This document shows, in pieces, positions 10,458-18,454 of a stretch of DNA of 35,275 nucleotides. Location of the stretch: positions 1 to 35,275 of the forward strand of contig JAITOZ010000238.1 in the NCBI GenBank assembly GCA_031289675.1, read 5' to 3'. The stretch comes from Planctomycetaceae bacterium. Its GTDB lineage: Bacteria; Planctomycetota; Planctomycetia; Pirellulales; Thermoguttaceae. The first letter of the stretch is position 1. Each line of letters starts with the position of its first letter. The translations under genes and the position numbers were made by a program. A model generated the notes under the pieces. The model saw only the letters and a program-made list of their open reading frames with translations, did no database searches and was not told the origin of the DNA.

Positions 10458-12650
10458 ATGCCGATAAAAGGGAGTGAGGCACTGTCAACACGAATGATGT
10501 ATCAGGCATTTTTCGGTCTAAAAAAACGCCCGTTTTCCGCCGTTCCCGATACCGAATCGTACTTTGATGTCGGTTCGATAGCGGAGTCGCGGAAAACCAT
10601 TGAGAACGTCATACGCTCTTCCGAAGGGATTTCGCTCGTTTTCGGTGCCGCCGGCACCGGAAAAACACTCTTGCTGCGCCTTCTCCGTCAAAATTTTGAG
10701 TGGGATTACACTGTATTGCCGATTATTAACGGGCTGATTGACTCGCCGAAAGTTTTATATCAGCAACTTTTATACCATTTACATCTTCCGTTTGCCGGAC
10801 AAGCGGCGGCGGAACTGCGGATGCAACTCTTTGATTATGTCCGGCAGCAGGTTACCCGCGGCACCGTTTTGTTGTTTGACGAGTCGCAATACCTGTATCC
10901 CGATGTATTGGAAGAAATCCGTCTGTTGGCAGATGAAACCGCCTGCCGGTTCCATACCGTATTAGCCGGTTCTATTGATTTTGAGGAAAAACTGACGATT
11001 CCGCAATTGGAAGCATTCAATCAGCGGGTTGCCGCCCTTTGTTACCTTGAACCGTTCACTTGTGAGGAGACGCTGCGGTACATTACCCGGCAGATACAGC
11101 ATTCTTTTCAAACAGGGTACAGCGTTTCTGCCGCCGAAGCAATGCAGCATTCCGAAGCGAAGGAAGTTCACCGCATCGACCCGCCGCACCGAAATTCCCA
11201 TTTGTTTTTCGGCGAGAACGCAAAACGGCGGATACATACCTTGACGGGAGGACTGCCCCGTTTGGTGAATCAACTCTGCGATAAAACGCTGCGGCTCGCT
11301 GCCGAAAAAAACATTTTCCGTATCGAAGACCTGTCCGTCAATGAGGCTTGGTCGCTGATTCAGCATATCGAACCGGCGGCGGTTGTAGAAGGAGAAAACG
11401 TTATGTCAATGCAAGACATTGACGACATTGTTTCAAAAAAACGGAAAACACTGCAACTGCGTCCTTTTGAGACAACGATTGAGTTCGGTTCGCTGGATGA
11501 TACACCGGACGAAGCAGAGAGTCCCGAAGAGACGGCTGCCTCTGTTCTGTATGACGCTGCTTTGTGCGATTCTGCGATGCCGGCGATGTTGCCTGAATTT
11601 GCCGTGTATAAACCTGCCTATCCCGAATTGGACGATGAAGGCAGCGATGATGCTGTGAACGTTGCCGTTGCTGTCAACGATGCGGTCGCCGAAGAGACAG
11701 CGGACGGCAACGCCGGCGGTAACGCAATGCATCAGGAATCCGGTTTGGAGAATACGAGCCGGCTGCCATCGGTTACCAATAGTCAACTTGAAGATGATAT
11801 GGATGCGAAAACATTGGAAGAGTACGGCGAAGCCGTGTTGAAAGACCGGCTGCCGTTCGTTCGGAAGGAACCGGACTATGCATATCAAACAACCGCTGCG
11901 GCACCCGAAGCCGTCCGCAACATTGAGTATCCCGGCACGTCAACGGGCAGCGTTGTTGTTTTGAATTGGCAGCAGAACGCAAGTAATGACGCACATTTCG
12001 GAGTGGCGTATTCAGAATACCAAAGTCTGGAGAAAGAAAGCGGAAAGCAGGGGCAGAATAATGACGCTGTGTTGAATGGTGGTGTGGTGAATGATACTGC
12101 TAGAGAGAGAACACTGTCCCCGGAATCGGCAATTATCCGCACAGTGTTTAACACAGCGGTTGAAGGATATGCACCGGCACAAAGCAGTATAGACGAAATT
12201 TTTATCGAAACGAAGACAGTCGAAACAAAGACGGTACCGCTTTCTGCCGTCTATAAAGCAGACGCAGATAAGGCGGACGGACGGCAAATGCTCAATCGAG
12301 TGCCGGAGACATCGGATATTGATGCTGCTATCGAAAAACGTTTAGAAAAAGTTGTTGATTGCATTACGGCGGCAGCGGCGAAAATTGAACAGGCAGCCGA
12401 AATAAGTTCAACGGCGGGTCGGCAGATTACAGAATCGGCGCAATTTATTAAAACGGAAATCAAGTCGGCATTACCGTCATACATTGATATGTTTCAAGAA
12501 TTATCAGAGTTTCAAAAGACGGTTTTGTCGGAACTTGATGCGATGCGTTTGAACACGGACTTACTGAATGTAAGGACACTGCTGCCGCGCCGTCAGATTG
12601 CCATCGAGCGCAGTGTTCCGGCAATTGACGTTGATTCGCTTTTTCAGTAA
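10458..12650 (+). CDS. ExeA-type AAA ATPase with a long acidic C-terminal region
   Basis: The product is 730 residues from 10458, or about 717 if it starts at the family-like MYQAFFGLKKRPFS (ATG at 10494 or 10497). The N-terminal 300 residues are an AAA ATPase of the GspA/ExeA group: Walker A GAAGTGKT (63-70), Walker B VLLFDESQ (137-144), then GGLPRLVNQLCD, a sensor-2-like helix. Such ATPases are found with secretion systems and with planctomycete or proteobacterial exopolysaccharide/exosortase loci. The remaining 430 residues are acidic, Ala-rich, and end in a helical, possibly coiled-coil segment (about 610-710). No membrane helix is seen, unlike ExeA itself. It lies near the Wzz/exosortase genes, which supports a role in surface polymer export, but this is inference. 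Confidence 0.8.
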   Translation: MPIKGSEALSTRMMYQAFFGLKKRPFSAVPDTESYFDVGSIAESRKTIENVIRSSEGISLVFGAAGTGKTLLLRLLRQNFEWDYTVLPIINGLIDSPKVLYQQLLYHLHLPFAGQAAAELRMQLFDYVRQQVTRGTVLLFDESQYLYPDVLEEIRLLADETACRFHTVLAGSIDFEEKLTIPQLEAFNQRVAALCYLEPFTCEETLRYITRQIQHSFQTGYSVSAAEAMQHSEAKEVHRIDPPHRNSHLFFGENAKRRIHTLTGGLPRLVNQLCDKTLRLAAEKNIFRIEDLSVNEAWSLIQHIEPAAVVEGENVMSMQDIDDIVSKKRKTLQLRPFETTIEFGSLDDTPDEAESPEETAASVLYDAALCDSAMPAMLPEFAVYKPAYPELDDEGSDDAVNVAVAVNDAVAEETADGNAGGNAMHQESGLENTSRLPSVTNSQLEDDMDAKTLEEYGEAVLKDRLPFVRKEPDYAYQTTAAAPEAVRNIEYPGTSTGSVVVLNWQQNASNDAHFGVAYSEYQSLEKESGKQGQNNDAVLNGGVVNDTARERTLSPESAIIRTVFNTAVEGYAPAQSSIDEIFIETKTVETKTVPLSAVYKADADKADGRQMLNRVPETSDIDAAIEKRLEKVVDCITAAAAKIEQAAEISSTAGRQITESAQFIKTEIKSALPSYIDMFQELSEFQKTVLSELDAMRLNTDLLNVRTLLPRRQIAIERSVPAIDVDSLFQ

Positions 12651-12721
12651 TACCTTTGCAACAGACGCAGGAAATTCAGCCTCCGCCTCCTTATGTTCAT
12701 ATCAACTTGTGATGCCGGGAC

Positions 12722-13079
12722 GTGTTGACGCTACGGCAGAGCGAGCGTAAAACTATGGCTGCAAGCCGGACACTATGCGTTTGCCGTTCCTTGCGGGGCT
12801 ACGTATTGGGTACGTACCATAATCTCCCTGTGGACTGTGGATTGTTGACTTTTCTTTTCTGAGTGGCTAAAATACGAACCGGTTTTCGCTCATCCGAAGA
12901 CCGTTTTGAAAGTCAATTTGCCCTTTTAGAGGGCTGAAAATTCGAGTACGTCAACAACTATTAGAATCGCTTCGGCGAAACATCATTTTCTACGTGACAA
13001 CCGAGTAATCGGGTAGAAGATATATGTTGGATAGCAGAGTTACGTTGCTCCCGTAAGGGGGCGTGCGTGTCTATCCAAC
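12722..13079 (+). ncRNA. candidate structured non-coding RNA
   Basis: The 670 bases between the ATPase gene and the small gene at 13321 carry no convincing protein but many stems. TGTTGACG (12723-12730) pairs with CGTCAACA (12949-12956) and encloses ACGGCA/TGCCGT (12733-12738/12782-12787), a 9-pair hairpin (12880-12888/12895-12903) and GCCCT/AGGGC (12920-12924/12930-12934). After it come TCGC-TTCG-GCGA (12967-12978), TTCTAC/GTAGAA around CCGA-GTAA-TCGG (12988-13018), and a perfect 9-pair stem (13026-13034/13071-13079) capped by GCTCCC-GTAA-GGGGGC (13047-13062). UUCG and GUAA loops occur in the plus sense, which sets the strand. I find no RNase P, tmRNA, SRP or riboswitch signature. Ends are guesses. 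Confidence 0.4.
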
Positions 13080-13320
13080 GGGTAGAATCGGCATTACGCC
13101 TTTTAATTGACGTGATGCACCTCTTTTGTCGGAGGGAATTGTCCCGAATTCTAATAGACGTGTCGCTCCCGTTCCTTGGGCGATTCTTTGTTGCAACTCA
13201 GCAGCCTTTTTCAAATTGAGATAAGTCAACGCCGGCAGACAGGAAACAGGTCTGATTATTGCCTGAACGCAGCAAATGAAAGCAGAACGAACCCTTTCTG
13301 CATTATAAGGATAACGCACA

Positions 13321-13626
13321 GTGATACAGCGGCAACAACCGGTCTCTTTGGCATCTTTTAACGCAAGAGGTTCTGCACAGCCTCAGTTAAACGAGTTGGT
13401 TAAACATTGCGGTAAATACATAGCGCAACAGTATGCACAAGTACAAAAGCCGGCATCAATAAGTACGGACACCATTCGGCGTGTCTTACGCGAAAAACTG
13501 ACTCAAGAGCCGTCAGATGACCTTCTTGCCGATGTCTTCTCTGAACTTTTTTTTCGGGGATTCCTGTCCCGCAATCCGGAAACAGGAGTGCATTTTGTAA
13601 CACACAACAGTATAAGAACATTGTGA
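13321..13626 (+). CDS. small protein of unknown function
   Basis: The 101-residue product starts at GTG with AAGGAT about ten bases upstream. It is predicted helical, with no signal peptide or membrane segment. The second half (TDTIRRVLREKLTQEPSDDLLADVFSELFFRGFLSRNPET) could be a winged-helix-like fold, but I cannot name a family. It follows the structured region and is followed by the large inverted repeat at 13798-13904. It could be real but unassigned. Confidence 0.5.
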   Translation: MIQRQQPVSLASFNARGSAQPQLNELVKHCGKYIAQQYAQVQKPASISTDTIRRVLREKLTQEPSDDLLADVFSELFFRGFLSRNPETGVHFVTHNSIRTL

Positions 13627-13797: not shown

Positions 13798-13904
13798 GGG
13801 TGCGTAAAACTTTATCGGGTATTTTTTTTTTTTTGAAAATAAGAGTTATGCAAGTTTTGTCCCGGTAGGGCTAAAAACAGCACCCGATAAAGTTTTACGC
13901 ACCC
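13798..13904. repeat. perfect 23-base inverted repeat with 61-base loop
   Basis: Left arm 13798-13820 (starts GGGTGCGTAAAAC) and right arm 13882-13904 (ends TTTTACGCACCC) are perfect reverse complements. The loop starts with a long T-run. It lies between two convergent genes, so it may end transcription from both sides. A third, related copy lies at 18679-18703, so this is also a dispersed repeat, perhaps a miniature element. Bases 13627-13797 and 13905-13954 show nothing else. Confidence 0.75.
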
Positions 13905-13954
13905 TCCGAAGTGATGACGGCTCTGAAAACAGAAGAAGGGAAGGTACAGAGCGG

Positions 13955-14628: not shown

Positions 14629-17121
14629 CTAGTCGGTATATTGCAATAGATGCGCCAGGCGGATTTGCTCCAACTTGTCGGCAAAACCGCCGTCCCTGCC
14701 GGACATTTGGTAGTACGGAATATCTTTTACCACGATGCCGTCAACCGAAGCCCCCGTGTTCACCAATTTACGGAGAACGTCCTCCATTGCGGCAAACACC
14801 GTTTCGCTCTGCCGGACGCAAAGTAAAGTTGAATCCGTACTCGAAGCGATAATTAGCGATTCCGATGCGTTGGCAACCGGCGGCAGCACAATCAGGACGA
14901 GCGAATAATGCTGTTCCAGCATATCAAGCAATTCACGGAAACGACCGTCGCCGAGCAACTCATAAGGGTCAACGTCCAGTTGTCCCGCCGAAAGCAGATG
15001 CAGGTTCGGCTCCTTTTCGTTTGTTACAACGGCTTCACCGAAACCGTTGCGGAATGACAGAACATCGGCTAATCCGATACCCGTCTCTTCGTTGCCGAAT
15101 AGCAGATGCAGCCGCCCGACCCGCATATCCGCATCAATGAGCAGTACCGGACCGCTTTTCATCTGCGCCATCGCTACGGCAATCTGAACGGCAAGGAACG
15201 TTTTTCCGTCATCTCCGGCGACACTCGCCACCGACAGCGTTTTACATCTTCGGAACGGGTCGCTCAACAGGAGATGCGTACACCAGTTATGCACACTTTC
15301 GCGGTACCTTGCCATCCGTTTTCGGAATGTTGCCCCGTGAAGCCACGAAACGGGCGGTTCCATAATTTCGCCGATGAGCACTTGCGGCATCGCCCGGCGG
15401 ATTTGCGAAACGTGATAGAGTCTCGGCTTCATCCGTTCAATGGCGATACTTAGAACAAGCGGAAAACAAAACATCGCCATTGAACCGACAGCAATCATCA
15501 TTATCTGCTTTATCATATTCGGAGCCATCGGTGTCGTTGCTCTGCGCTGTAGAACAATCCTATCCGGTGCGTAACGTTCTGCTTGCAGTGTTACCAAACG
15601 TTCCGAAAGGGCATCGAGAACTTTATTCACCCGTGCGAGTGCTGCCTGGTCAAATGAAACATCTGCGATACTGTTTGACCTTGCACCGGACTTGTCCAAC
15701 TGCTCCTTGTACTTTGTCTGTAAATCCTCAACCTGAATTTCCTGCGAACGAATCTCCATATTTTTTTCCCAGATTTTCCGCTCAATATTGGTTCGGATAG
15801 ACATTTGAAGGGATTGTCCTTTGGTGCTTTTTGCACCTTCAAGAAGGTCTTTGATATTCTTTTCCGCTTCGGCAATTTGAGTGTCCAAATTCTTTACCCG
15901 CGGGTCGTCCGGTCTCGTCAATATAGTTTTCAACGTTTCCTGTTTTACTCTTAAAGAGTCGAGCAGCGCATTTAATCTTTGCAATTCGGGGTCATTTTGA
16001 ATCGCCTCGTAGAGCAATGATGCCGGTATCTGATCGGGACGTTCTAATGTTTCCTCAAGCATTTTTTTGTCGGCACGCAGCGTAACAAGCCGGGTGTCGG
16101 CAAGGAGAGTCTCCCGCAGCAGGGATTCTCCCTGTCCGATACCGGCAACCAGTCCGTCCATTCCGGCGGCGGCACCTTGTGTCGCTGCCGTCTCTATTTT
16201 TTGCCGGATGCTTTCCTGATAGAAATTCGCCGTTGCCGTCTGACGCGCCAATTCCCCGCTCAACTGCCGGACTAAAAGGGCGTTACTGTCTTGCGTCGTT
16301 ACATTGTAAAAATCAAAATACGCATCCACAACGGCATTGACGATTTTCTCCGACTCATCCGGCAGGCTGCACTCCATTGAAACAACGACCATTTCCGACT
16401 TACCATCGGTTCGTACACCAAGTTGCTTTGTCAGCCAACTAACCTTATCTTTTTCACGGACAACACAGGCAAGTTTTGCTACATCGGCATTTTCCAATGC
16501 CTTTTCGAGAATCACCGGACTCCGTATCAAGGAGAACTGAGTATTCACGAATTCATCGTACTTAATCTGTTCTTTCTCGTCATAAATAAATCTCGGTTTC
16601 GTGGAATAAATCCGCATCAAGGCAAACGCAGTGTATTGTGCCGGAAAGGCGATATAAAGTATTCCGGCAGCGAGCAGCGACAGAAAAACAGCAGACGACA
16701 GCGACCATTTCCAGTTTCGTTTCAGACCGGACATCAACAGTAACACCAATATCTGCGGTGTCATTCGGGAAGATTCGACCGGGTCGAGAATCGGAGCCGA
16801 ACGGGGCGGCTTCTGATGATGCAGTAATTCTTTGGAGAGGTTTTCTTGATGATAATACGAATTATCCTCCTGAGAATAGACCGGCTGCGGTTCATAACCC
16901 GCCTGCTGCGGAACGAACCGTCCCTGCTGTTCATCGGGACCTGGAGCATAATAACCGTTTGGCACACCGTCAGAAACCGGCACACCGTCAGAAACATAGT
17001 TCCCCTGCGGAGGAATCGGCTGCCCTGCTGCCGATTCTGTATGCGCATCAACACCGGCACTGCCGAGCGGTTGGTTTGCCCCTAAAGGTATTTCTTCAAA
17101 AGGTACTTCATTATTCGGCAT
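14629..17121 (-). CDS. Wzz/BY-kinase polysaccharide co-polymerase and tyrosine kinase
   Basis: The 830-residue product has a Gln/Pro/Tyr-rich cytoplasmic N-terminus (1-110), membrane helix one (about 139-158), a Wzz domain, a long coiled-coil periplasmic part (about 290-515), membrane helix two (about 540-560), and a C-terminal CpsD/CapB-type ATPase with Walker A VAGDDGKT (634-641) and Walker A' LLIDADMR (660-667). Such fusions set polymer length and control export of exopolysaccharide. The usual C-terminal tyrosine cluster is nearly absent; the N-terminal region has many tyrosines. Residues 44-55 hold a VSDGVP repeat encoded by an 18-base tandem repeat (about 16976-17011). GAGGAT lies eight bases before the start. 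Confidence 0.9.
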   Translation of the reverse strand: MPNNEVPFEEIPLGANQPLGSAGVDAHTESAAGQPIPPQGNYVSDGVPVSDGVPNGYYAPGPDEQQGRFVPQQAGYEPQPVYSQEDNSYYHQENLSKELLHHQKPPRSAPILDPVESSRMTPQILVLLLMSGLKRNWKWSLSSAVFLSLLAAGILYIAFPAQYTAFALMRIYSTKPRFIYDEKEQIKYDEFVNTQFSLIRSPVILEKALENADVAKLACVVREKDKVSWLTKQLGVRTDGKSEMVVVSMECSLPDESEKIVNAVVDAYFDFYNVTTQDSNALLVRQLSGELARQTATANFYQESIRQKIETAATQGAAAGMDGLVAGIGQGESLLRETLLADTRLVTLRADKKMLEETLERPDQIPASLLYEAIQNDPELQRLNALLDSLRVKQETLKTILTRPDDPRVKNLDTQIAEAEKNIKDLLEGAKSTKGQSLQMSIRTNIERKIWEKNMEIRSQEIQVEDLQTKYKEQLDKSGARSNSIADVSFDQAALARVNKVLDALSERLVTLQAERYAPDRIVLQRRATTPMAPNMIKQIMMIAVGSMAMFCFPLVLSIAIERMKPRLYHVSQIRRAMPQVLIGEIMEPPVSWLHGATFRKRMARYRESVHNWCTHLLLSDPFRRCKTLSVASVAGDDGKTFLAVQIAVAMAQMKSGPVLLIDADMRVGRLHLLFGNEETGIGLADVLSFRNGFGEAVVTNEKEPNLHLLSAGQLDVDPYELLGDGRFRELLDMLEQHYSLVLIVLPPVANASESLIIASSTDSTLLCVRQSETVFAAMEDVLRKLVNTGASVDGIVVKDIPYYQMSGRDGGFADKLEQIRLAHLLQYTD

Positions 17122-17291: not shown

Positions 17292-18389
17292 CTAAAGCGT
17301 TACACGTCTGAATACCTTGCCGAGATACCAGATGAAAAATCCGAATAAAAACAAGGCGATGAACACCAGTACAAGCCCCGAAAATTCATCGGCAACCACA
17401 CTTGGATTTTGTCCTTCCTTTGTCATCAAGTCGACCAGCGCATTAAAGTGCATAAGCAAAATGCCGGTCAGCGCAATGCGGGAAGCATTGACAAACAATG
17501 CCAACGGCACGGCAAAAACAATGATGACAACATTTTGCCACCACGGGCGGCGCATCAACAGAACAGCAGCAAAGGCGATAGCCATAATGCTGATTAAAAA
17601 CCGGAGACCGCTGCACGCAGATTCCACACCGAGTTCCATCGTGCTTAACCGTATCGTATTTTTTATGGGAATCGCCGGTTCTCCGACGAGTTGCAGCAAT
17701 ACTGCCGCAAACTGAGCCGCAAACGCTTGAAGATGATTGCGCATCAGGACATCGAAAGAGTAGGGTAATTGGAACATAAAAATCAGAAAACTCAGCGACG
17801 GCAAAGCCCAGAGGAAAACCTTCGTGCCGTAGAAAAACCAAACCGCACCGAGAATCCAGAAAAAAATCGACCACTGCTCTATCGCATCCAGATATTGTAT
17901 GCCGGCAACATACCGCATTACAGCATAAACGACTATCGGGAAGAGTCCCAGCCAGTCAGGATTGCAGCGTGTTCCGGGATACGATGCCCGCCGGACATAG
18001 AGAAAATAGGCGGTCAACGGAATGATGAACAAACCGTGTCCGTAATCCAAGGTGTTGAGCCAAGCGTAGGCAATTCTTTCCCACGCCGGAAACGATGCCC
18101 AGATGCAGAGCGGAACACCGATAACGAGCAGCAGCAAAAGCCGGGTACGTTCAAATACCGCATCGACCGGCAGGAGAACCTGCTGCACAACCGTATTTTT
18201 TACCGCAGCGGGACGCGGTGCGCCGTCCGGCGAAGGACTTCGCTTGTCACTTTTCGGCGGTGCGCCGCCGGAAGTAAAGTCTGCCCGTTCCCGCTTCACG
18301 CCTTCGGCAGCAGGGATATTTTGCGCATTAAAACGATGTCCGCCCTCTTCTTTGGACTGCGGATTTTGATTGCCTTGATTCTCCGACAT
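17292..18389 (-). CDS. exosortase-family membrane protease/transpeptidase
   Basis: The 365-residue product has a disordered hydrophilic N-terminus (1-75) and about eight membrane helices. Exosortase motifs are present: VESACSGLRFL with Cys259 and NASRIALTG with Arg304. At the third position, where the family normally has a His in HxxxG, this protein has Asp334 in DEFSG. Exosortases are proposed to sort proteins with a C-terminal PEP-CTERM-like tail, and often sit in exopolysaccharide loci, as here beside Wzz. No protein in the window ends with such a tail. The start at 18389 fits the promoter at 18455-18482, which would leave almost no leader for the longer start at 18446. Confidence 0.88.
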   Translation of the reverse strand: MSENQGNQNPQSKEEGGHRFNAQNIPAAEGVKRERADFTSGGAPPKSDKRSPSPDGAPRPAAVKNTVVQQVLLPVDAVFERTRLLLLLVIGVPLCIWASFPAWERIAYAWLNTLDYGHGLFIIPLTAYFLYVRRASYPGTRCNPDWLGLFPIVVYAVMRYVAGIQYLDAIEQWSIFFWILGAVWFFYGTKVFLWALPSLSFLIFMFQLPYSFDVLMRNHLQAFAAQFAAVLLQLVGEPAIPIKNTIRLSTMELGVESACSGLRFLISIMAIAFAAVLLMRRPWWQNVVIIVFAVPLALFVNASRIALTGILLMHFNALVDLMTKEGQNPSVVADEFSGLVLVFIALFLFGFFIWYLGKVFRRVTL

Positions 18390-18454
18390 ATCGTTCACTG
18401 ATGAAAAACCGGTTTGGTTCAATAGCGGTATTATCCGACACCGCACTTCTCCCT

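Follow-up and report, generated by a model that had tools for sequence, protein, structure and literature searches.

What occupies the gene-free interval 12651 to ~13320, flanked by an AAA ATPase gene (10458–12650) and an orphan open reading frame (ORF; 13321–13626), on this Planctomycetaceae contig? (Positions refer to the window, i.e., the whole 35,275-nt stretch of DNA that was analyzed.) The original prediction was a folded RNA at 12722–13079, recognizable by dense stems with UUCG and GUAA loops. Those stems and loops are indeed present on the plus strand (UUCG at 12971–12974; GUAA at 13005–13008 and 13053–13056), but the limits assigned to them are wrong: the left third (12722–12844) is at the level of shuffled sequence in its folding and lacks homologs, and the RNA continues past 13079 to about 13196–13212. 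The segment 12880–13205 forms a more stable fold than 100 of 100 dinucleotide shuffles (z = −3.68), as does 12700–13090 relative to 99 of 100 (z = −3.13), whereas 12655–12844 is indistinguishable from its shuffles (z = −0.65). No homologs of this left part, which lies 5′ of the promoter described below, were recovered, as genome searches align only from query position 194 onward. The two halves, nonfolding (12655–12844) and folding (12880–13205), are separated by a promoter-like site at 12845–12873, and the RNA extends from this site to about 13212, with a conserved multihelix core of ~260 bases at ~12942–13196. Two covariance models, whose E values are both rough, recover this core: R1 (145 positions) matches 12942–13084 with 126.7 bits, and the full-length R2 (312 positions) matches 12907–13211 with 201.9 bits.

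The promoter is of the sigma-70 type, with TTGACT (12845–12850) and TAAAAT (12868–12873) separated by a 17-nt spacer; transcription of the window RNA would start near 12880. When 8 or more of 12 consensus bases and a spacing of 16 to 18 nt are required, a promoter lies 5′ of 119 of 145 copies, against a background of 6.4%, and in the promoter-bearing copies, the −10 element mostly ends 100 to 107 nt ahead of the core. At the inferred 5′ end, a 9-bp hairpin is predicted by folding (CGGTTTTCG/CGAAGACCG, 12880–12903). The same hairpin occurs upstream of a bioB-like gene (named by eye) on contig C8 of the same genome, where the segment at 16828–16919 (L002) is 81% identical to window positions 12844–12933, covering the promoter and 5′ hairpins; the RNA core is absent there. 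Just ahead of the core, a short hairpin, P0 (12919–12934, TGCCC/GGGC), is present in both alignments of the family (A1 and A3) and is longer in most homologs.

The core is closed by helix P1, which pairs 12949–12956 with 13189–13196 in the homolog alignment; its outer two pairs are broken in the window copy, and one of its A-U pairs (columns 68/345) becomes G-C in 10 sequences. The long-range helix proposed originally (12723–12730 with 12949–12956) includes the true 5′ strand of P1 but assigns it the wrong partner: the proposed partner is an exact 8-mer match that lies outside the RNA, and we reject it because homologs support the pairing with 13189–13196. Within P1, hairpin P2 (12967–12978, UUCG loop) is supported on alignment A1 only, its position being shifted between two sequence groups in A3. 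Helix P3 (12987–12993/13013–13019), in which five of seven pairs change on both sides, carries an inner extension, P3b (13001–13003/13010–13012), with a GUAA loop. No other helix varies or covaries as much as P4 (13025–13033/13073–13080), in which 9 of 10 pairs change on both sides; an additional GC-arm pairing within it (GCG/CGC), as judged by eye, is inconsistent between copies and was discarded. P5 (13048–13052/13057–13061), with a GUAA loop, is paired in 99% of alignment cells. P6 (13086–13089/13136–13139) encloses P6a (13091–13097/13112–13118) and P7 (13120–13123/13132–13135); these three helices are paired in 97%, 95%, and 99.5% of cells, with two, four, and three pairs, respectively, changing on both sides. 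P8 (13163–13167/13179–13183) is paired in 98% of cells, and its outer U-A pair becomes C-G in 17 sequences. Helices P1, P3, P3b, P4 through P8, and P6a can be mapped onto the window. A further pairing, of 13042–13045 with 13158–13161, crosses P4 and would thus form a pseudoknot; at its outer pair, 13 of 49 copies have A-U, 21 have G-U, and 11 have G-C (45/49 in all), and because these changes are one-sided, we regard the pseudoknot as moderately supported.

Compensatory changes in the homologs, which had been suggested as a check on the stems, are extensive and exceed both shuffled and slid controls. Alignment A1 (21 copies) holds 69 pairs, 28 of which show changes on both sides. In alignment A3, consisting of 49 diverged full-length copies and used to test the named 54-pair structure, a standard pair is present in 91.9% of cells (versus 83.2% when shuffled and 37 to 51% when partners are slid), 26 of the 54 pairs change on both sides, 269 cells carry two-sided changes (versus 90 when shuffled), and the covariation score is 0.329 (versus 0.173 shuffled and at most 0.102 slid); not one of 500 shuffles attains the observed value for any of the five measures. 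Compensatory changes in nearly every helix indicate selection for the fold. The tetraloops themselves vary in sequence among homologs, the P2 loop being UUCG or UUAG and the P5 loop GNNA.

The absence of any known RNA signature, as first reported from the letters alone, was borne out by covariance-model searches: Rfam 15 at gathering score, applied to the window and 13 homologous loci, returned no match except a tRNA elsewhere in the window, and a relaxed scan of 12840–13325 gave chance matches only (E of at least 2.2). No earlier description of the RNA was found in the literature searched, which was a limited selection. The large RNAs OLE, GOLLD, ROOL, and raiA are usually present in single or few copies. 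The RNA resembles them in its multihelix fold and many conserved positions but differs from them in having no Rfam match and in accompanying different genes in dozens of copies. As a clade-restricted structured RNA found by covariation, it is also comparable to the motifs obtained by comparative genomics by Weinberg et al. (2010; PMC2864571), such as Rhodopirellula-1 and Acido-Lenti-1. Acido-Lenti-1 has an Rfam model, which the RNA does not match; the entry naming Planctomycetes is Rhodopirellula-1, which has no Rfam number in the table of PMC2864571 and hence falls outside the Rfam-based comparison.

Searching related genomes with the sequence uncovered dispersed homologs: in a DNA search of its own genome and 60 relatives, window positions 12937–13195 proved to belong to a family represented dozens of times in congeners. 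Overall, ~150 distinct copies were recovered. The window genome holds about 6, and the richest genomes (G013 and G016) at least 44 to 50 each; all are fragmented metagenome-assembled genomes (MAGs) in which contig ends truncate many genes, and these counts are minimum values. R1 matches occur in 17 of 20 congeners and extend to a second genus of the family (15 to 16 copies in G028), and a family-wide search, with matches in 22 of 119 genomes, added a third. R2 applied to 397 genomes of the order again returned three genera, all of one family, and beyond them, a single weak, partial match among 392 genomes of the phylum. This match (L277; G471:C1:647761-647870), in another family of the same class, scores 25 bits over 110 nt and is probably due to chance, or else a distant relative; a pattern match in Myxococcales (L179) is attributed to chance, with a profile score of only 8 bits. 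Copies in genome G006 (L018/L061 and L029/L087) retain the 5′ part of the RNA and have lost similarity in the 3′ half, and may be truncated or decaying copies. The covariation, the dozens of copies per genome, and the lack of a counterpart in Rfam strongly support the earlier suggestion of a new RNA class: this is almost certainly a new, clade-restricted, multicopy structured RNA.

The hosts appear to be mostly termite-gut Planctomycetota. A conserved-pattern scan of named genomes found at least 80 loci, and among the matches listed, 79 of 80 belong to MAGs named “Planctomycetaceae bacterium,” with bin names (Lab288P3, Th196P3) that resemble gut-compartment bins of a termite study (PMC7024585). 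That study classed its Planctomycetia planctomycete MAGs as Pirellulaceae, and a second termite study (PMC9137090) reported one Thermoguttaceae MAG. Judging from its genus, the window genome would likewise be of termite-gut origin.

Most copies directly precede a gene. Enough readable downstream DNA is available for 110 of 150 distinct copies, and 71 of these lead into a prepilin-like N terminus by an automatic test, with further such cases visible among the copies that fail it; three of the prepilin-like proteins were typed by Pfam as SBP_bac_10/DUF1559 plus N_methyl (the N-terminal methylation motif). The copies fall into a main and a divergent group. For the main group, an ORF of at least 100 aa starts within 120 nt in 56 of 62 copies, and a Shine-Dalgarno sequence is present for all 63 of the ORFs that start 75 to 110 nt after the RNA. 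For the divergent group, such an ORF starts within 60 nt in 28 of 40 copies, against 10% in a random control that is itself an upper bound, since internal ATGs are counted. The divergent-group genes are unrelated to one another and encode GYF_2-type proteins (in several genomes of two genera), GTPase-like proteins, lipoproteins, RmuC, a methyltransferase, an HNH protein, and a DUF1559-like prepilin; recurrent association is seen for the DUF1559/N_methyl type, in most copies, and for the GYF_2 type, in several genomes. A low Shine-Dalgarno rate in divergent copies (8 of 30) equals the background of these genomes (~32% of 336 ORFs; 4 of 18 window genes) and is therefore uninformative, and the idea that the RNA substitutes for a Shine-Dalgarno sequence was dropped. 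Downstream of one copy, L052 encodes (1819–2088) a 90-aa protein that looks ubiquitin-like by eye (no Pfam match), followed by a possible E2-like ORF.

Many copies, their own promoters, and a position usually just ahead of a gene suggest a control element on the mRNA, and we consider it probable, at roughly two chances in three, that the family is a new class of cis-acting structured 5′ leader that controls the adjacent gene. That the copies instead constitute a stand-alone, trans-acting RNA family, with promoters 5′ of genes by chance and transcripts that are processed or end before the genes, is unlikely, although it would suit the ornate fold with its conserved unpaired positions, the separate promoter of each copy, and the lack of a recognizable gene after the window copy and some G006 copies. 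A simple scan also marks terminator-like stretches between RNA and gene in 90 of 137 copies, but their tails are mixed U/A, making them weak, and no clear terminator was seen. Against independent transcripts stand the stretch between RNA and gene, which contains a second promoter by the same criterion in none of 137 copies, the tight start-codon distances across unrelated gene families, and the 45 to 50 near-equivalent copies in one genome, a number unusual for a trans-acting RNA. Less likely still is a passively duplicated promoter-leader block, spread with prepilin families or by recombination, whose structure serves as an mRNA stabilizer or transcription start cassette. Main-group copies do have promoter, leader, and prepilin N terminus in common, many copies, like repeats in general, are found close to contig ends, and joint duplication of leader and gene could account for part of the main-group link to DUF1559; yet a passive block fits poorly with compensatory changes in nearly every helix and with its presence in three genera and before unrelated genes, whose shared tight distance makes duplication of a single gene family hard to invoke. 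Finally, a mobile element or integron attC site is highly improbable: the family is multicopy and the ends of the hairpin at 13026–13079 (GTTGGAT...ATCCAAC) fit the attC core-site consensus, but homologs keep the pairing of P4 while its sequence varies freely, so that the conserved core-site sequence required of attC is not seen, P4 lies inside a larger RNA, conserved units of which come with their own promoter and at a consistent distance from the gene, and collections of phages, plasmids, and viral contigs contain no matches to the RNA.

How a cis-acting leader might operate is suggested by an alternative 3′ hairpin, P9 (13187–13203; weak in the window copy), in which the 3′ strand of P1 pairs with the bases just after it. 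A P9-like stem occurs in 31 of 43 divergent copies (7.5 on average in 300 shuffles, maximum 14), and the pairing is kept by different sequences (TTGCG/CGCAA, TTGCCG/CGGCAA, and TGGCG/TGCCA); it also occurs in 117 of 117 main-group copies, a count that is weak as independent evidence because their sequences are nearly identical. Some copies lack P9, and no clear sequestered or anti-Shine-Dalgarno element was found for the RNA. Because P1 and P9 are mutually exclusive, they may constitute a two-state switch, a reading that we hold tentatively, at somewhat less than even odds. From features observed in silico (structure, copy number, promoter, position ahead of genes, and the overlap of P1 and P9), we infer a scheme for transcription, switching, signal, and direction of control. 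Transcription of every copy would begin at its own sigma-70-type promoter and continue into a gene starting ~15 to 50 nt (divergent group) or ~75 to 110 nt (main group) after the RNA. The multihelix domain closed by P1 would compete with P9, which forms beside the start region from the same 3′ strand, and this choice, governed by a common signal (a ligand, a protein, or an RNA), would set translation of, or elongation into, the leader's own gene, such that one signal reaches dozens of genes, mostly prepilin-like DUF1559.

Leaders of this kind have precedents in riboswitches and orphan cis-regulatory leaders, among which the c-di-GMP GEMM motifs occur in many copies per genome in some bacteria. 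Points of likeness are the probable position as a structured 5′ leader with its own promoter, the many copies per genome, the location of many of them before genes for surface or secreted proteins, and, at the 3′ edge of the core, the possible switch to a second pairing. The RNA nevertheless does not match the GEMM covariance models or any Rfam riboswitch, its fold is different and larger, and a riboswitch-type ligand is only hypothetical here. It is possible, again at somewhat less than even odds, that we are dealing with a new, large riboswitch-like class of insect-gut Planctomycetota whose P1/P9 switch puts dozens of genes of one cell under one signal; the proteins encoded by these genes would then be prepilin-like and others, largely membrane associated or secreted. 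Planctomycetota have very large families of DUF1559 prepilin-like proteins that await explanation, and a common structured leader on dozens of the genes would offer a direct handle on the control of these proteins and perhaps their role. A genome regulated by ~50 copies of one ornate RNA would, if true, be exceptional, and the fold is a fresh candidate for ligand discovery.

In the window itself, the proposed link between the RNA and the following small gene holds as a rule of the family and is weak for this particular ORF. The ORF at 13321–13626 (plus strand, 101 aa, GTG start) may be the controlled gene, but it is an orphan of doubtful coding status: it matches neither a Pfam nor a PHROGs family, no homolog turned up in 60 related genomes, and its codon score of 0.076 lies above the 95th percentile of off-frame sequences (0.044) and below the 5th percentile of real genes (0.153). 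A dispersed repeat (13205–13259), directly 3′ of the RNA, intervenes between the two; it shares 78 to 82% identity with sites on four further contigs of the same genome (L003 to L006), where no RNA core was found. The genes flanking the RNA (AAA_22 ATPase, 10458–12650; AAA_31/CbiA, 14629–17121; exosortase, 17292–18446) suggest an exosortase/exopolysaccharide cluster. A miniature inverted-repeat transposable element (MITE)-like element with long inverted ends (GGGTGCGTAAAACTTTATCGGGT / ACCCGATAAAGTTTTACGCACCC) lies at 13798–13905 and is related to dozens of places in the same genome (89 matches).
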